A stretch of DNA of 64,000 nucleotides, taken from NCBI RefSeq assembly GCF_023554255.2, contig NZ_JAMJWD020000001.1, forward strand, positions 1,208,755-1,272,754, written 5' to 3'. This document shows, in pieces, positions 8,443-41,723 of this stretch. The notes beneath the pieces are model-generated. The model saw nothing but the letters and a program-made list of their open reading frames with translations, was not told the DNA's origin and searched no databases. The first letter of the stretch is position 1. Each line of letters begins with the position of its first letter. Both the position numbers and the translations under genes were made by a program. This stretch comes from Phyllobacterium sp. 21LDTY02-6. GTDB taxonomy: Bacteria > Pseudomonadota > Alphaproteobacteria > Rhizobiales > Rhizobiaceae.

Positions 8443-8457
8443 GTTCATCCTATGTTC
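8443..8457 (+). promoter_or_regulatory. LexA (SOS) box upstream of dinB
   Basis: GTTC-ATCCTAT-GTTC is an exact match to the alphaproteobacterial LexA operator GTTC-N7-GTTC. It ends 11 bases before the dinB ATG, where bound LexA would block transcription. Confidence 0.75.
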
Positions 8458-8468
8458 CGTTGCGCACC

Positions 8469-9785
8469 ATGGTCAATCTGAATGCCCCGAACTTCGGTTT
8501 CTGCCGGGACTGCCTGACGCTACAGACGACGGCGTCGCGCCGCTGCCACAAATGCGGCAGTCCGCGGCTGCTGCGCCATGACGAACTTTACAGCCTCAAC
8601 ATTGCGCATGTGGATTGCGACGCGTTCTATGCTTCGGTCGAGAAGCGTGACAACCCGGAACTGCGCGACAGGCCGGTGATTATCGGCGGCGGGAAACGTG
8701 GCGTTGTTTCAACAGCTTGCTACATTGCGCGCATCCATGGTGTCAAGTCTGCAATGCCGATGTTCAAGGCTCTCGAAGCCTGTCCGGACGCCGTGGTCAT
8801 AAAACCGGACATGGAGAAATATGTGCGCGTCGGGCGCCAGATCCGGCAGTTGATGCGCGACCTCACGCCATTGGTCGAGCCGTTGTCGATCGACGAGGCC
8901 TTCCTCGATCTTTCGGGCACGGAGCGGCTGCATCATGATCCGCCGGCACGGGTGATGGCGCAGTTTGCCGACCGGATCGAACGGGAAGTCGGGGTGACGG
9001 TGTCGATCGGCCTGTCCTACTGCAAGTTCCTCGCCAAGATCGCTTCGGACCTCAACAAGCCGCGCGGGTTCTCGATCATCGGCCGCGACGAAGCCGTCGC
9101 CTTCCTCCACGACAAGCCGGTGACGATGATCTGGGGCGTCGGCAAGGCCTTCGCCGCATCGCTGGAACGTGATGGCATCCGCACCATCGGCCAGCTGCAA
9201 ACCATGGAACAAGGGCCTTTGATGCGCGCCTATGGCACCATGGGCCAGCGCCTCTACCGGCTTTCAAGGGGTCTCGACGAACGAAAGGTCGAGCCCGACG
9301 GCGAGAGCAAGAGCGTGTCCGCCGAGACGACGTTCAACGAGGATATCGCTACGCTCGAGGAACTGACGCCGATCCTGCGCTCGCTCTCGGAAAAGGTGGC
9401 GCGCCGGCTGAAGGCAGCCGACATTGCCGGGCGGACGGTCGTCCTGAAGCTCAAATCGAAGGATTTCAAGCTGCGGACGCGCAATCGCCAACTGGCCGAT
9501 CCGACGCAACTGGCGGACCGCATTTTCCGCACCGGCTATTCGCTGCTGGTGAAGGAGATCGACGGCACGCGCTTCCGGCTGATCGGCATCGGGGTCAGCG
9601 ACCTTGCCGATGACGGCCGCGCCGACCCGCTCGATCTCGTCGATATACAGGGGACGAAACGCGCCGTGGCCGAAACGGCCATGGACAAGCTGCGATTGAA
9701 ATTCGGCAATGATGCCGTGGAGACCGGCTATACTTTCGGCAAGATGAAGCGGCGGCGCCCGGATATTCCCGACGAGATCGACTGA
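8469..9785 (+). CDS. dinB: DNA polymerase IV with N-terminal Cys4 module
   Basis: 438 residues, Y-family translesion polymerase. Catalytic motifs are [12 protein letters not shown] and [11 protein letters not shown]. The thumb and little-finger regions follow. Before the polymerase core is an extra segment of about 40 residues with CRDC and CHKC, a zinc-ribbon-like pair seen in the longer rhizobial DinB proteins. ATG 8469 is chosen over TTG 8460. Neither has a good ribosome site, so translation may be nearly leaderless. The LexA box just upstream predicts damage induction. The gene converges on dnaE with an 11-base gap. Confidence 0.93.
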
Positions 9786-9796
9786 CGCGCCGGCCG

Positions 9797-12700
9797 TCAG
9801 GCCATTTCGACTTCAATTATGCCGGGAATGGCCTTCATTGCACTCGCCACCTGCGGACCGACGCGGTAGCGGTTGGGCAACTCTATCTCCACTTCATTGG
9901 CGCCATTCTCCTTGATCAGGATAAGGCTGACGACCTGGCCGTCATTCTGCGGCGCCAGATAGGGGCTGAGGGCACTGAGCGGCGTGCTGTTGCGCATATA
10001 GAGGCGCAACGACTTCTGCATGCGCGTTGCCTCGTCCTCGAGCGATTGCGCCGTCTGGATGCGCAGGCTTATGCCCTCGGGACGATCTTCGGCGCCGACG
10101 GTAACGACCACGGAACGGCCGGGCTCCAGCAGGTCGCGGAATTGATTGAGCGCCTCGGAGAAAAGCACCGCTTCGAACTGGCCGGATGCGTCGGAGAACT
10201 GGATGATCCCCATCTTGTTGCCGGTCTTGGTCTTGCGCTCCTGCTTGGCCGTGATGGTGCCGGCGAGACGCCCGGCATTGGCGCCGCGCTTGACCGCCGC
10301 GGAAAAGTCGGCCCAGTTCTGGACCCGCATCTTCTCCAGGATCGGCCGATATTCATCGAGCGGGTGCGCCGACAGGTAGAAGCCCGCTGCCTCGAATTCG
10401 CGGCGGAGCTTCTCCGAGGAAAGCCATGGCGCGGCGGCGGGGAGCTGTATCGCCTGCGAACCCGCACCGGCCATTGCGCCGAAAATATCCGCCTGCCCGC
10501 TGATGCTGTCTTCCTGCGTCCTCTGCGCATGGCCGATGATGCGGTCAAGGCCGGCAATGAGCGCGGGGCGGTCGCGACCGAAGCAATCGAACGCACCGAC
10601 ATTGATGAGGCTTTCGAAGACCCGCCGGTTGACGACACGCGGGTCTATCCGCTCGCAGAAATCCTCCAGGCTGGCATAGGGCGTGGCGCCGCGCTTCTCG
10701 ACGATGTGATCAACGGCCGCCTCGCCGACGCCCTTGATGGCCGCAAGAGAATAGAAGATCCGGTTCTCGCCCACCTCGAACAGCCGATAGGACGTATTGA
10801 CCGACGGCGGCACGACCTCGATGCCGAGGCGAACCGCCTCGCGCCGGAAATCGTTGAGCTTGTCCGTATTGGACATATCGTAAGTCATCGACGCGGCGAG
10901 GAACTCGACCGGGAAATGCGCCTTCATATAGGCGGTCTGGAACGAGACGATGGCATAGGCCGCGGCATGCGACTTGTTGAAGCCGTAATCGGCGAATTTG
11001 GCCAGCAGATCGAAGATGAAATTGGCCTGCGGCTTGGTCACGCCACGCTCGACCGCGCCATCGACGAAACGCACGCGCTGCAGGTCCATCTCGGAGCGGA
11101 TCTTCTTGCCCATGGCGCGGCGCAGAAGATCGGCTTCGCCCAGCGTATAGCCGGACATTTCCTGCGCGATCTGCATCACCTGTTCCTGGTAGATGATGAC
11201 GCCCTGCGTTTCCTTGACCAGATGGTCGATCTTGGGATGGATCGACGCCATCTCCTCCTCGCCATTCTTGCGGGCATTATAGGTCGGGATATTCTCCATC
11301 GGGCCCGGGCGATAAAGCGCGACGAGCGCGATGATGTCCTCGATCCGATCGGGCTTCATGCCGATCAGGGCCTTGCGCATGCCCGTGCTTTCAACCTGGA
11401 ACACGCCGACCGTCTCGCCGCGCGACAGCATTTCATAGGTCAGCCTGTCGTCCAGCGGCAGGTTCGACAGATCGACCGAAATGCCGCGCCGCTTCACAAG
11501 ATTGACCGCCGTCTGCAGCACGGTCAGCGTCTTCAGGCCAAGGAAGTCGAACTTGACCAGCCCCGCCTCCTCGACCATCTTCATGTTGAACTGCGTGACA
11601 GGCATGTCCGACCGCGGATCGCGATACATCGGCACCAGCTCGGACAGGGGGCGGTCGCCGATGACGATGCCGGCGGCATGGGTCGAGGCGTGCCTGTAAA
11701 GCCCTTCGAGCTTCAGGGCGATATCCAGCAGCCGTTCGACGACCGGTTCCTTGTCCCGCTCCTCGCGCAGCCGCGGTTCGTCCTCGATGGCCTTGGAAAG
11801 CGTCACTGGATTGGCCGGGTTGGCCGGCACCATCTTGGTCAGGCGATCGACCTGGCCATAGGGCATTTCGAGAACGCGCCCGACATCGCGCAGGACTGCG
11901 CGGGCCTGCAGCGTTCCAAAGGTGATGATCTGGGCGACCTGGTCCCTGCCATACTTGCCCTGCACATAGCGGATGACCTCATCGCGCCGGTCCTGGCAGA
12001 AGTCGATGTCGAAATCCGGCATCGAGACGCGGTCGGGGTTGAGAAAGCGCTCGAACAGCAGCGAGAAACGCAGCGGATCGACGTCGGTAATCGTCAGGGC
12101 ATAGGCGACAAGCGAACCGGCGCCGGAACCACGGCCCGGGCCGACCGGGATGTCATGGGCCTTCGCCCATTTGATGAAGTCCGAGACGATAAGGAAATAG
12201 CCCGGATATTTCATGCGGGTTATCACCGAGATTTCATATTCCAGGCGCTGCGCGTAACCTTCCGGCGTGTGGCCCTCGGCGAGCCCCAGCGTCTCCAGCC
12301 GATGCGCCAGCCCCTCGCGAGCCTGCCGCGCCAACTCCTCCGCCTCCGCCTCGAGTGCAGCGTCCGGATCGGCGCTTTCGCCGGTGAAGCGCGGCAGAAT
12401 GGGCGCGCGATTCTTCGGGTAGTATGAACAGCGCAGCGCGATCTCGACGGTATTGTCGATGGCCTCGGGCAGATCGGCGAAAAGCTCGACCATCTCCGCC
12501 TCGCTCTTCAGGTAGTGATCGGGCGTCAGCCGCCTGCGATCGTCGATCGAAAGCAGCGAGCCGGATGCGATGGCGAGCAAGGCATCATGCGCATCGTAAT
12601 CGGCGCTCATGGAGAAGAACACGTCATTCGTCGCAACCAGCGGCAGTTCCAGCGCATAGGCAAGCTCGACCTGGGCCGCCTCCAGCGCGCGGTCATAACC

Positions 12701-13288
12701 CCGGTGCCGCTGCAGTTCGACATAAAGCCGGTCGCCGAACAGCGATTTCAGGCTGACGAGCCGCTGGCGCGCTCTGTCGGTGCGATCATCCCTGATCGCC
12801 TTGGCGATGGGACCTTCCGGCCCGCCGGTCAGTGCTATCAGGCCTTCGGTCGCGCCAACCAGCCAGTCGCAGCGGATATGCACCGGATCGCCGCTGACGG
12901 TCTCCAGATAGGCGCGGCTGACCAGCCGCACGAGATTGGCATAGCCCGTCTCCGTCGCCGCCAGCAGAACGATCGGGGCCAGCCCCAATGCCTCGCGCCT
13001 GTTGACGCTGCGGCTCTCCTCGCTCTGATCGTGAAAGGCGATGTCCAGCTGGCAGCCAATGATGGGCTGCAACCCGGCCTTGGAACCCTTCTGCGCGAAT
13101 TCGAGTGCGCCGAAGAGATTGTTCGTATCGGTGATTGCAATCGCCGGAGCAGCATTCTTGACCGCGAGGTCTATGACCTTCGGAACCTGCAACGCGCCTT
13201 CAAGCAGCGAATAGGCCGAGTGAACCCTGAGGTGCACAAAGCGCAATGCGCTCTTCGACACGTCCATACCAATCTGTCCGTCAGCCAC
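9797..13288 (-). CDS. dnaE: DNA polymerase III alpha subunit
   Basis: 1163 residues, C-family replicative polymerase. The N-terminal PHP domain starts at HLRVHSAYSLLEGA. The palm acidic residues lie in MPDFDIDFCQDRR, and a C-terminal OB fold carries LAGTITAKQERKTKTG. GTG 13288 is chosen because GGAGA lies 6 bases upstream and the resulting MADGQIG start is of normal length. TTG 13294 and ATG 13267 are in frame but less well supported. It sits at the end of the proS-lolC-lolD block, downstream of a tiny membrane-peptide gene. Confidence 0.95.
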   Translation of the reverse strand: MADGQIGMDVSKSALRFVHLRVHSAYSLLEGALQVPKVIDLAVKNAAPAIAITDTNNLFGALEFAQKGSKAGLQPIIGCQLDIAFHDQSEESRSVNRREALGLAPIVLLAATETGYANLVRLVSRAYLETVSGDPVHIRCDWLVGATEGLIALTGGPEGPIAKAIRDDRTDRARQRLVSLKSLFGDRLYVELQRHRGYDRALEAAQVELAYALELPLVATNDVFFSMSADYDAHDALLAIASGSLLSIDDRRRLTPDHYLKSEAEMVELFADLPEAIDNTVEIALRCSYYPKNRAPILPRFTGESADPDAALEAEAEELARQAREGLAHRLETLGLAEGHTPEGYAQRLEYEISVITRMKYPGYFLIVSDFIKWAKAHDIPVGPGRGSGAGSLVAYALTITDVDPLRFSLLFERFLNPDRVSMPDFDIDFCQDRRDEVIRYVQGKYGRDQVAQIITFGTLQARAVLRDVGRVLEMPYGQVDRLTKMVPANPANPVTLSKAIEDEPRLREERDKEPVVERLLDIALKLEGLYRHASTHAAGIVIGDRPLSELVPMYRDPRSDMPVTQFNMKMVEEAGLVKFDFLGLKTLTVLQTAVNLVKRRGISVDLSNLPLDDRLTYEMLSRGETVGVFQVESTGMRKALIGMKPDRIEDIIALVALYRPGPMENIPTYNARKNGEEEMASIHPKIDHLVKETQGVIIYQEQVMQIAQEMSGYTLGEADLLRRAMGKKIRSEMDLQRVRFVDGAVERGVTKPQANFIFDLLAKFADYGFNKSHAAAYAIVSFQTAYMKAHFPVEFLAASMTYDMSNTDKLNDFRREAVRLGIEVVPPSVNTSYRLFEVGENRIFYSLAAIKGVGEAAVDHIVEKRGATPYASLEDFCERIDPRVVNRRVFESLINVGAFDCFGRDRPALIAGLDRIIGHAQRTQEDSISGQADIFGAMAGAGSQAIQLPAAAPWLSSEKLRREFEAAGFYLSAHPLDEYRPILEKMRVQNWADFSAAVKRGANAGRLAGTITAKQERKTKTGNKMGIIQFSDASGQFEAVLFSEALNQFRDLLEPGRSVVVTVGAEDRPEGISLRIQTAQSLEDEATRMQKSLRLYMRNSTPLSALSPYLAPQNDGQVVSLILIKENGANEVEIELPNRYRVGPQVASAMKAIPGIIEVEMA

Positions 13289-13443
13289 GATCAATCTCCG
13301 AGAATTGAACGGAGAACTCGATTCTACCGCCCGGCCCTATAGTTCCGCATGGCTAAACCGGTGTCCACAGCTTTCCGGCCGGTACGCCGCATCTCCGGTG
13401 GAGAACGATGACGGAAGACGGCCGGCACCGTTATTGGCTTTCA

Positions 13444-13530
13444 TCAAATGACGCTCACCCACATGGCGAATGTCGCTATGAACAGGCTGACAGTAACGAA
13501 TGACATAACGTCCTGGAAAAGTTCGTTCAT
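13444..13530 (-). CDS. 28-residue single-pass membrane peptide behind a LexA box
   Basis: The ATG at 13530 has AAGGG eight bases upstream. Translation gives a short acidic N terminus (MNELFQDV), then a hydrophobic stretch to the C terminus (residues 9-28) that includes FATM-type aromatic and aliphatic residues and one Trp. The length suits one inner-membrane helix. It lies between lolD and dnaE on the same strand. A GAAC-N7-GAAC LexA operator and a CTTGAC -35 element lie 40-64 bases upstream. Caulobacter SidA is a LexA-controlled 29-residue membrane division inhibitor, so an analogous role is my inference. I see no established family. Confidence 0.65.
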   Translation of the reverse strand: MNELFQDVMSFVTVSLFIATFAMWVSVI

Positions 13531-13569
13531 GGTATAAACCCTTCTTCGTTGTCGTTGTGTCTCTGTTTT

Positions 13570-13594
13570 GTTCTATTTTTGTTCTCTCGTCAAG
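13570..13594 (-). promoter_or_regulatory. LexA box with overlapping -35 element
   Basis: On the minus strand CTTGAC (13594-13589) is followed four bases later by GAAC-AAAAATA-GAAC (13584-13570), an exact GAAC-N7-GAAC operator. The operator fills the -35 to -10 spacer. No good -10 is evident. The downstream gene is the 28-residue peptide, then dnaE. Confidence 0.7.
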
Positions 13595-13651
13595 CCTGTT
13601 TATCCGCCACCGCGCCCTAATGGTTTTCAAAAGGTAAACGCGCCGGTCTGT

Positions 13652-14335
13652 TCAGAGATTTATTATCTTGCCGTTCTTCAACGTCACGCGGCGATCCATG
13701 CGGCGCGCGAGCTCGTGATTATGCGTCGCTATCATCGCCGACAGGCCGGATTGACGCACGAGCGCTTCGAGAGCCTCGAACACATAGGACGATGTCACCG
13801 GGTCGAGATTGCCCGTCGGCTCGTCGGCCAGCAGCACCAGCGGCGCATTGGCGACGGCGCGCGCGATGGCGACGCGTTGCTGCTCGCCGCCGGAAAGTTC
13901 GCTCGGCCGATGCGACGCCCGGGCGCCGACCTTCATGTAGTCCAAAAGCTGCTGCGCCCGCTCGGAGGCGATGGAAGGCGACATGCCGCGAATCATCTGC
14001 GGCATCATCACGTTCTCCAGCGCCGTGAACTCCGGCAAGAGATGGTGGAACTGGTAGACGAAGCCGACATCATTGCGGCGAATGGCCGTGCGCTCGTCAT
14101 CGGACAGCGCGCCGCATGAACGGCCGTCGAGCAGGACGTCGCCGCTGTCGGGGCGCTCAAGCAGGCCGGCCGTGTGCAGCAGGGTGGATTTGCCGGCGCC
14201 CGAAGGGGCGACAAGCGCAACCATCTCGCCGCGACCCAGTGAAAAATTCGCCTCGTCGAGGATGATCAGCTCGCGGCCGATCTCGTCATAGCGGCGGCCG
14301 ACGCCCGTCAGCTGCAGGATGGGTGCAGCACTCAT
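13652..14335 (-). CDS. lolD: Lipoprotein-releasing system ATP-binding protein
   Basis: 227 residues. ABC ATPase with Walker [12 protein letters not shown] (written GPSGAGKS in most homologues; here APSGAGKS), signature [14 protein letters not shown] and Walker [12 protein letters not shown]. It powers release of outer-membrane lipoproteins to LolA. The ATG directly follows the lolC stop, so the two are coupled. The first residue of the Walker A motif (Ala in place of Gly) is a tolerated substitution. Confidence 0.92.
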
Positions 14336-15622
14336 CTATTCATACCTCAGCGCTTCGACGGGATCGAGCTTGGCCGCCCGCCATGCCGGAAAAAGAGTGG
14401 CCAGAAACGACAGCACAAGCGCCATCAGGATGACGCTGAACGTCTCGTTGAAATCCATCTTGGCCGGCAATGTGCTGAGGAAGTAAAGCTCTGGGTTGAA
14501 CAATGTCGTACCGGACAACCATGAGAAGAACTGCCTTATCCGCTCCACGTTCAGGCAGACGACGACGCCGAGAATGACGCCGGCGATGGTTCCGGTGACG
14601 CCGATGGCGGCGCCCGTCATCAGGAATATGCGCAGGATCGAGTTTCGCGTCGCCCCCATCGTCCGCAGGATCGCGATGTCGTGCCCCTTGTCCTTGACCA
14701 GCATGATCAGCCCCGAAATGATATTGAGCGCGGCGACGAGCACGATGAGCGTCAGGATCATGAACATGACGTTGCGCTCCACCTGAAGCGCCGAGAAGAA
14801 GGTCTGGTTGCGCTGACGCCAGTCGGTCAACATAACCGAGCGCTGGGCGGCATCCTCGATCGGCTTCTTGATCGAATCGACCGCATCGGGATTGTCGACG
14901 AAGATCTCGAGGGATTGGACCTTGCCCTCCTGGTTGAAATAGGTCTGCGCCTCTTCAAGCGGCATCAGGACGATAGACGAATCATATTCCGACATGCCGA
15001 CTTCGAAGATCGCGGTCACGGGATAGGACTTCATCCTGGGGCCGACGCCGAGCGGCGTGACGTCGCCATCCGGCGAGATCAGCGTAAGCGAGTCGCCCAG
15101 CCCGAGACCCATGTTTTCCGCCATGCGCGTGCCGATGGCGACGCCTCCGGCGCTGTTGAAGCCCTGGAAAGTGCCCTGGCGCACATTCTTGGCGACAAGT
15201 TGCAGCTTGGCGATATCTTCCTCGCGCAGGCCACGAACGAGCGCGCCCGACCCTGCCCCGGCATTGCCGGTGGCCAGAACCTGGCCCTCGACGACCGGAA
15301 TGGCGAAGGAAACGCCCTGCACTCCGTCGATCCGCTTGATCGCCGCGTCGAAATCGTCGAGCGGCCTGTCCATCGGCTGCATGATCACATGGCCGTTTAT
15401 GCCGAGTATCCGCGTCAGCAGCTCGCTGCGAAAGCCGTTCATCACCGCCATGACGATGATGAGCGTCGCAACGCCCAGCATGATCCCGGTGAAGGAAAAG
15501 CCGGCGATGACCGAGATGAACGTCTCTTTCCGACGGGCGCGCAAATATCGCCACGCGATCATTCGTTCATAGGCCGAAAAGGCCCTCGAGCCGGTCGGAG
15601 CGGCCTCGTCTTTTGCGGTCAT
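14336..15622 (-). CDS. lolC: Lipoprotein-releasing system permease LolC/LolE family
   Basis: 428 residues with one N-terminal membrane helix (about 37-60), a large periplasmic domain and three C-terminal helices, the FtsX-like MacB topology. A single LolC/E-type permease with lolD is usual in alphaproteobacteria, where the complex is a homodimer. It overlaps the proS stop by 4 bases and abuts lolD. Together these move lipoproteins out of the inner membrane. Confidence 0.9.
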
Positions 15623-39902: not shown

Positions 39903-41723
39903 ATGGATAATCAGGGCGGCAAGGGAGGCAAGTTCCCGAACCTCGACAGCTACGTCGTCAAGGATCCGGATGCTTTCGCGCGCAACGTCGCCCATATGAT
40001 CGAGCAGGCCGGCAAGGCTGCCTCTGCCTGGGTCGAGCCCCGCGAAAAAGGCATGAAGCGCGACACGCTCGCCGATCCCGTCGCCGATGTGGTGAAAACC
40101 TTCTCCAAGGTCACCGAATACTGGCTGGCGGAGCCATCGCGCGCGGTCGAGGCGCAGACGAAGCTCTTCGCCAGCTATATGCAGATATGGGCCAATTCCA
40201 TCAGGCGTCTCGGCGGCGAGGAGGTCGAGGCCGTCGCCGAACCGGACAGGAACGACAAGCGCTTCAACGATGAAGACTGGGGCCGCAATGCGTTCTTCGA
40301 TTTCCTGAAACAGGCCTATCTCGTCACCTCGCGCTGGGCCATCGACCTGGTGGAAAACGCCGAGGGGCTCGACGAACATACGCGCCACAAGGCCTCGTTC
40401 TACGTCAAGCAGCTGACGGCGGCGGCGTCGCCGAGCAACTTCCTCCTGACCAATCCGGAACTCTACAAGGAGACGGTTGCCAGCAATGGCGAGAATCTCG
40501 TCAGGGGCATGAAGATGCTCGCCGAGGACATTGCGGCCGGCGGCGGCGATCTGCGCCTGCGCCAGTCCGACCTGACCAAGTTCGCGCTCGGCGAAAATAT
40601 TGCGACGACGCCCGGCAAGGTCGTGGCGAGAAGCGAAGTCGCGGAAATCATCCAATACGAACCGACCACGAAAGAGGTGTTGAAGCGCCCTCTCCTGATC
40701 TGCCCGCCATGGATCAACAAATTCTACATACTCGATCTCAACCCGGAAAAGTCGTTCATCAAATGGGCGGTCGATCATGGCCACACGGTATTCGTGATTT
40801 CCTGGGTCAATCCCGACCAGCGCCATGCGCAGAAGGACTGGACGGCCTATGTCAATGAGGGATTGCGCTACGCCCTCGACACGGTGGAGAAGATCACCGG
40901 CGAAACGGACATCAACGCCATCGGCTATTGCGTCGGCGGGACGCTGCTGAGCGCCGCGCTCGCCCTCTTCGCCAAGGAAGGCGAGGACCGGATAAAAAGC
41001 GCCACTCTCTTCACCACCCAGGTCGATTTCACCCATGCGGGCGACCTGAAGGTCTTTGTCGACGAGGACCAGATCCGGGCATTGGAGAATGCCATGTCGG
41101 CGGAAGGCTTCCTCGAAGGCACGCGGATGGCGACGGCGTTCAACATGCTGCGCTCCGGCGACCTGATCTGGCCCTATGTGGTCAATAATTACATGCGCGG
41201 CCGCGAGCCCGTGCCGTTCGACCTGCTCTACTGGAATGCCGACGCCACGCGCATGAGCGCCGCCAACCACTCCTACTATCTGCGCAATTGCTATCTCGAC
41301 AACAATCTGGTGCGCGGGATGATGCGGCTGGCGGGCGAGCAACTCTCGCTGAAGGACGTGAAGATACCGATCTACAATCTGGCGGCGAAGGAAGATCACA
41401 TCGCGCCGGCGCTGTCGGTTTTCACCGGCTGCCATCATTTCGGCGGCGACGTCACCTATGTCCTCTCCGGTTCCGGCCACATTGCCGGGGTGGTCAATCC
41501 GCCAGGCAAGAACAAGTATCAGTACTGGACCGGCGGCGCGCCAGAGGGGTCGTTCGAGGACTGGCTGGCGCGCACCGAGGAACATCCCGGCTCGTGGTGG
41601 AATCACTGGCACGATTGGATCACGGCGCTGGACGATGCGCGCGTCGCCGCGCGCCAACCCGGCGCGAATCACGTCGAAGTGCTGGCCGATGCACCCGGCA
41701 CCTATGTGCGCGTCCGGGTCTGA
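39903..41723 (+). CDS. phaC: Class I poly(3-hydroxyalkanoate) synthase
   Basis: 606 residues. It polymerises (R)-3-hydroxyacyl-CoA into storage polyester on granule surfaces. The lipase-like box GYCVGG has catalytic Cys343. The Asp (KEDHIAP) and His (GSGHIAGVV) of the triad are present, and FLLTNPEL is a class I signature. GGAGGA lies before the ATG. No phaA, phaB or phasin gene is nearby. Confidence 0.95.
   Translation: MDNQGGKGGKFPNLDSYVVKDPDAFARNVAHMIEQAGKAASAWVEPREKGMKRDTLADPVADVVKTFSKVTEYWLAEPSRAVEAQTKLFASYMQIWANSIRRLGGEEVEAVAEPDRNDKRFNDEDWGRNAFFDFLKQAYLVTSRWAIDLVENAEGLDEHTRHKASFYVKQLTAAASPSNFLLTNPELYKETVASNGENLVRGMKMLAEDIAAGGGDLRLRQSDLTKFALGENIATTPGKVVARSEVAEIIQYEPTTKEVLKRPLLICPPWINKFYILDLNPEKSFIKWAVDHGHTVFVISWVNPDQRHAQKDWTAYVNEGLRYALDTVEKITGETDINAIGYCVGGTLLSAALALFAKEGEDRIKSATLFTTQVDFTHAGDLKVFVDEDQIRALENAMSAEGFLEGTRMATAFNMLRSGDLIWPYVVNNYMRGREPVPFDLLYWNADATRMSAANHSYYLRNCYLDNNLVRGMMRLAGEQLSLKDVKIPIYNLAAKEDHIAPALSVFTGCHHFGGDVTYVLSGSGHIAGVVNPPGKNKYQYWTGGAPEGSFEDWLARTEEHPGSWWNHWHDWITALDDARVAARQPGANHVEVLADAPGTYVRVRV

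Follow-up and report, generated by a model that had tools for sequence, protein, structure and literature searches.

A predicted LexA-controlled membrane peptide gene of Phyllobacterium, probably orthologous to Caulobacter sidA

Between lolD and dnaE of Phyllobacterium sp. 21LDTY02-6 lies a 28-codon open reading frame (ORF) preceded by a LexA-type operator, which raises the questions of whether the frame is a gene at all and whether it corresponds to SidA, the 29-residue LexA-controlled inner-membrane division inhibitor described in Caulobacter crescentus (PMC4211646; PMC12700426). Comparative genomics indicates that it is probably the Phyllobacterium ortholog of sidA, repressed by LexA, induced by DNA damage and halting division via FtsW; in silico evidence gives good support to its regulation and ancestry, and we infer its induction and the arrest of division.

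The peptide gene and its operator

The window (the whole stretch of DNA that was analysed, 64,000 nucleotides) contains the following features:

13444..13530, minus strand: sidA-like ORF of 28 codons plus TGA, with an ATG start, encoding a predicted one-helix membrane peptide
13539..13543, minus strand: AAGGG ribosome-binding site, read from the sequence, 8 nt before the ATG
13570..13584, minus strand: predicted LexA operator, exact GAAC-N7-GAAC (GAACAAAAATAGAAC), at -54 to -40
13589..13594, minus strand: CTTGAC, probable -35 element, in which TTGAC begins 9 nt before the LexA box
13652..14335, minus strand: lolD-like ABC ATPase, upstream neighbour (Pfam ABC_tran; the name lolD reflects its place next to a lolC-like ORF)
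9797..13294, minus strand: dnaE (DNA polymerase III alpha), downstream neighbour (Pfam; TTG start as mechanically listed)
8443..8457, minus strand: second exact LexA box, before the ATG at 8470 of a dinB-like ORF on the plus strand

The translation of ORF 13444..13530 (MNELFQDVMSFVTVSLFIATFAMWVSVI, 28 aa) has a single hydrophobic segment (mean hydropathy 1.04 to 2.04 in 19-residue windows). The layout described in a first-pass annotation of this DNA (28 codons, AAGGG, one hydrophobic helix, and an exact box just inside a CTTGAC -35) was confirmed in every part, and both the ORF list and Pfam (ABC ATPase, polymerase III alpha) agree with its placement of the gene between lolD and dnaE. A sigma-70 scan of both strands from 13290 to 13660 returned no site, and there is no clear -10 element. 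The operator overlaps the promoter region, and so, by the known SOS circuit, LexA should block transcription and its cleavage should release it. Scans of eight family members against Pfam and NCBIfam at E values up to 10 matched no model, the HMMER filters being insensitive for short peptides.

The bare motif count was rejected as weak evidence: three exact copies were observed in the window versus 1.5 expected (20 of 100 shuffles reach three), and 155 were counted genome-wide versus 96 for the reversed motif. The third copy in the window (40239-40253) is apparently within coding sequence and was taken as fortuitous. The box near dinB had been put forward in the first-pass annotation as showing that the motif is meaningful here; an exact box does stand 12 bp before the dinB-like ORF (a name assigned by eye), but the bare motif is weak evidence for its meaning. 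Two of the window's 367 ORFs that start with ATG and encode 24-40 aa have an exact box no more than 130 bp upstream: the peptide gene and a minus-strand ORF (start 8407) that backs onto the box at 8443. The same genome has a lexA-type gene (G000:C1:1024972-1025163), and an exact box (1025215-1025229) precedes it by about 50 bp. Two more short frames of this genome score above the Pfam LexA DNA-binding cut-off (L252 and L253, G000:C1:815453-815635 and 818070-818255, 2.6 kb apart); the exact box is absent from their 3.2 kb loci.

Conservation of peptide and box in Phyllobacterium and the Hyphomicrobiales

All 20 Phyllobacterium genomes searched, including that of the window, keep the peptide (86-100% identity), with the exact LexA box at the same distance, -54. 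Codon positions that vary among the 20 sequences are the third in 19 of the 28 codons, the first in four and the second in two, and mean pN/pS is 0.038. Judged from these sequences, ORF 13444..13530 is a real gene whose amino-acid sequence is under strong purifying selection, a judgement based on the conservation of peptide and box throughout the genus and not on the motif count.

A codon-pattern scan of the named genome collection, made without reference to the box, yielded at least 119 loci, 80 of them with titles; the titled matches listed are from Phyllobacterium, Mesorhizobium, Aminobacter, Brucella, Nitratireductor, Tianweitania, Chelativorans and relatives. The peptide is encoded from an ATG in all 119 matches listed and has exactly 28 residues in 118, the other being clipped by the end of its locus. 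Conservation of the frame and the box in relatives had been proposed as a check of the first-pass reading, and it proved strong: besides the 20 Phyllobacterium genomes, 117 of the 119 loci listed carry an exact box in the 130 bp upstream, versus none for the reversed control motif, the two others being L041 (with only 23 bp upstream) and L107 (with two one-mismatch boxes). Within the same family, a match to profile A1 at E values up to 0.1 was obtained in 228 of 394 genomes. An exact box precedes 30 of 40 divergent family matches and 36 of 40 weaker matches (19 from other families of the order), with none for the control motif in either set, fractions that do not describe random samples, as these loci and the 20 class loci considered below were hand-picked from longer lists with a preference for full-length matches in short frames. 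The divergent loci lacking an exact box are L151 (11 bp upstream), L171 and L183 (one-mismatch boxes), and L155, L159, L173, L179, L180, L188 and L189 (none); the weak ones are L209 and L224 (one-mismatch boxes) and L192 and L203 (none). Pooled, 183 of the 199 Hyphomicrobiales loci have an exact box and 16 have none.

The promoter arrangement recurs along with the box: TTGA(C/A) is found exactly 9 bp before it as the sole nearby copy in 125 of the 183 boxed loci, or in 128 when those with another copy are included. A tandem operator, in which two overlapping boxes form three half-sites 11 bp apart, is present in 65 of the 199 loci (e.g. L032), and box pairs 18 bp apart are found in many Caulobacteraceae (e.g. 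L258); the window gene has a single box only. The tandem operators of Hyphomicrobiales and Caulobacteraceae suggest very tight repression. Among 91 distinct family peptides, the most constant residues are D7 (90), S10 (87), S15 (81), F17 (91) and A22 (89), which may form a face for helix-helix contact.

The upstream neighbour is lolD in 107 of the 119 loci listed (unreadable in 8) and the downstream neighbour is dnaE in 26 (unreadable in 9), and in a set of 20 loci, all but one from other families of the order, lolD is found in 16 and dnaE in 19. The 45 Mesorhizobium-titled loci listed keep peptide and box with lolD upstream in 37 and dnaE downstream in only one; therefore, the gene is independent of dnaE. 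This independence counts against an alternative that we consider quite unlikely, namely that the ORF is an upstream ORF or leader tying dnaE expression to DNA damage, with a peptide that itself does little. The purifying selection on the amino-acid sequence likewise disfavours it, and the RNA fold at the locus is not unusual (z -0.33), with no RNA element seen; in its favour, the peptide ORF of the window lies about 150 bp from dnaE on the same strand with no terminator-like site between them on that strand, and in Sinorhizobium meliloti the 5'-UTR of dnaE1 contains a small translated ORF, sORF25, whose authors propose that ORFs of this kind may serve as uORFs (PMC10117765). Compared by location only, sORF25 is possibly the same gene as the one studied here; the main text of PMC10117765 makes no mention of LexA, SidA or lolD.

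Second copies of 32-33 residues, with an extra tail ending in AEKV or AEKVG, are present in genus g17 (L159, G035:C27; L173, G197:C4; L179, G266:C37), with not even a one-mismatch LexA box within 150 bp; G035 additionally has a boxed 28-residue copy (L022). These boxless second copies are possibly SOS-independent paralogs. No LexA box, exact or one-mismatch, was found at L155 (G027:C37), L188 (G069:C16), or L180 and L189 (genus g49), and boxed copies are carried elsewhere by G027 (L161) and G069 (L021).

Relationship to sidA of Caulobacter

Published locus tags place the Caulobacter genes as follows: sidA is CCNA_02004 (PMC11034885), CCNA_02005 is an inosine-uridine nucleoside hydrolase (PMC3667746), lexA is CC1902 (PMC1839093) or CCNA_01979 (PMC11535069), and dnaE1 is CC1926 (PMC1839093). 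By arithmetic from these tags, the offset of 77 between the two numbers of lexA means that dnaE1 should be CCNA_02003, next to sidA.

The first class-wide search, with a Rhizobiaceae-type profile (A2), gave nothing convincing outside the order and was set aside, whereas a broader, order-wide profile built from Hyphomicrobiales peptides only (A3) succeeded when run on 385 genomes of the class. Of the 20 hand-picked class loci examined, two are of the same order, both boxed, and 18 are from outside it, in six of which a LexA box stands ahead of a short hydrophobic ORF; the 12 unboxed matches are probably due to chance. One of the six boxed loci (L234, re-read as L257) sits between lolD and dnaE, and it belongs with L235 to a family (f115, Caulobacteraceae) whose CtrA is the closest among 162 genomes to that of Caulobacter (87%, the next being 85%). 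Genus g519 of this family is presumably Caulobacter, on the basis of the CtrA match, the gene order and the residue numbering of FtsW.

Of the 119 Caulobacteraceae genomes searched, 112 matched at E values up to 5 and seven did not, and 50 loci were read, one per genome (the best 30 of the 112 and 20 picked from the rest, mostly g519). The peptide gene is directly before dnaE in all 50. Peptide lengths (n = 49, L284 being excluded for its start) are 29 residues in 39, 30 in four and 31 in six; those of g519 (L285-L299) are 29 residues in 15 of 15. An exact LexA box is present at 37 of the 50 loci, and each of the other 13 has two one-mismatch boxes. A nucleoside hydrolase ORF is in front of the peptide gene in all five g519 loci inspected, confirmed by Pfam for L293. 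Identified by locus, box and FtsW numbering, these dnaE-adjacent Caulobacteraceae peptides are very probably SidA.

The peptide of the window resembles them in being short, with one hydrophobic helix, a predicted LexA operator and a gene before dnaE, and shares with them an acidic residue at position 7 and F17. It differs in its length of 28 residues and in its C-terminal part, where similarity is weak, and its locus differs in that lolD adjoins it directly, whereas g519 has the nucleoside hydrolase gene between lolD and sidA. Alignment with hhalign of 20 Caulobacteraceae peptides gave 92% and E 6.3e-7 with profile A2, and 95% and E 1.6e-8 with profile A3, the alignments spanning residues 1-20 or 1-21 only; the remainder differs (e.g. 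W24 here versus W19 there). Against A3, 19 of these 20 peptides scored higher than every one of the 200 shuffles made from them individually, and 14 higher than all 4000; with the narrower A2, the numbers were 13 and 6. The Caulobacteraceae peptides were chosen via a profile containing two of their kind, so that more independent evidence comes from two features invisible to that profile, the box and the placement ahead of dnaE. Profile similarity, LexA operator and place before dnaE together are evidence, at the level of sequence and gene order, that the window gene and its relatives are orthologs of Caulobacter sidA. The first-pass annotation, which called the peptide a functional analogue of SidA, is thus supported, if too modest in the term.

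Short LexA-controlled membrane peptides are also known among toxins. TisB of E. coli has about 29 residues and is a depolarising toxin paired with the antisense RNA IstR. The size, the single hydrophobic helix and the LexA control of the window peptide recall TisB, and would suit a damage-induced toxin that slows metabolism by depolarising the membrane, with no action on the divisome, but such a role is highly improbable for a peptide related in sequence and place to that of the sidA locus. No Rfam family was matched in 12900-14400 at E values up to 1, and hence, as far as known families go, no antisense regulator comparable to IstR. The intergenic DNA of the locus had no match in the plasmid collection, nor had one Mesorhizobium-type member of the family in the plasmid and phage collections, so that those collections give no sign of a mobile gene, which also speaks against a toxin of this kind.

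FtsW, mode of action and reach of the locus

SidA is reported to bind FtsW and FtsN in two-hybrid assays, its lethality being suppressed by mutations in FtsW and FtsI, among them FtsW A31K, F145L and A246T (PMC4211646); a low-confidence model puts it at TM7 of FtsW (PMC13396833), and cells lacking LexA filament due to sidA (PMC12700426). The residues replaced in these suppressors, A31, F145 and A246, are present in FtsW of two g519 genomes, and the corresponding residues of FtsW here (A24, F137 and A237) are identical at all three sites. This is weak evidence at an overall identity of 46%; alignment with the FtsW-like proteins of four Caulobacteraceae genomes gave 47-48%. Four RodA-like proteins have A, V, L and L at site 31, Y at site 145 and A at site 246, so that only site 145 cleanly separates FtsW-like from RodA-like proteins. 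The conserved suppressor sites are thus only consistent with action of the peptide on FtsW, FtsI or FtsN.

By analogy with the known circuit, LexA bound to the operator just inside the -35 element would keep the gene off. Upon DNA damage, RecA would trigger cleavage of LexA, and derepression would allow the 28-residue peptide to be made. The peptide would insert into the inner membrane as a single helix and dock on FtsW, perhaps also on FtsI or FtsN, holding septal wall synthesis inactive, and the cells would elongate without dividing until LexA recovers. We infer all four of damage induction, membrane insertion, FtsW binding and division arrest.

A descendant of sidA could also be SOS-induced and yet act mainly on an envelope machine other than FtsW (e.g. 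FtsN or polar growth). One FtsW/RodA-family protein was found in the genome studied here versus two per Caulobacteraceae genome searched, so the setting of wall synthesis differs, and the C-terminal part of the peptide is unlike those of Caulobacteraceae; with the three SidA-relieving sites of FtsW unchanged here, this retargeting is nevertheless unlikely.

Other small division inhibitors resemble the peptide in part. DidA of Caulobacter is likewise small, has one helix and inhibits division via FtsN and the FtsW/I/N complex, but is SOS-independent and driven by DriD (PMC4211646), in contrast to the gene studied here with its conserved exact LexA box. YneA, ChiZ and SosA of Gram-positive bacteria are single-helix proteins induced by the SOS response, and their reported or modelled target is FtsW or a late step of division; a LysM domain is present in YneA and ChiZ, and the helix of SosA is extended (PMC13396833), whereas the peptide here is a helix only.

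The open-access literature yielded no paper joining Rhizobiales, cell division, DNA damage and SidA, and open-access titles and abstract openings yielded none placing SidA outside Caulobacter; prior mention in the subscription literature, which is outside this scope, is possible. The surprise is in the reach and common origin of the system and not in its mechanism. If the proposed reading is true, SidA is not peculiar to Caulobacter: rhizobia and their relatives share a Caulobacter-type SOS division checkpoint encoded by a gene too short for usual annotation, a safety switch far more widespread than annotation shows, and how these bacteria halt division after DNA damage becomes a testable question. 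The family would also provide a large pool of naturally occurring variants of a minimal peptide, probably directed at FtsW, from which its binding face could be mapped, and a search rule, namely a LexA box either downstream of lolD or upstream of dnaE.

Across the class, 69 dnaE loci were taken from representatives, one per family, and 67 of them included sufficient sequence. Eight of the 67 representatives, one of them of the same order, have an exact box in the 900 bp ahead of dnaE, versus one of 67 for the reversed motif. A short hydrophobic ORF follows the box in all eight; the probability that a randomly placed position would satisfy this ORF criterion is 0.10. The exact box is absent from that interval in the other 59, in which the gene may be absent, elsewhere, or under a degenerate box. 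We tentatively suggest, at somewhat less than even chances, that lolD-sidA-dnaE is an ancestral DNA-damage checkpoint locus in much of the Alphaproteobacteria, encoding orthologous, fast-diverging peptides matched by no model, in many lineages under tandem LexA operators; its target would be FtsW in bacteria with a sole FtsW, and the boxless paralogs would be SOS-independent inhibitors. Several peptides of the eight boxed representatives have no visible SidA motif and are at most candidate homologs. Short hydrophobic ORFs behind an exact box before dnaE are found at L314, L322, L323, L341, L345, L352 and L359, in other alphaproteobacterial families.
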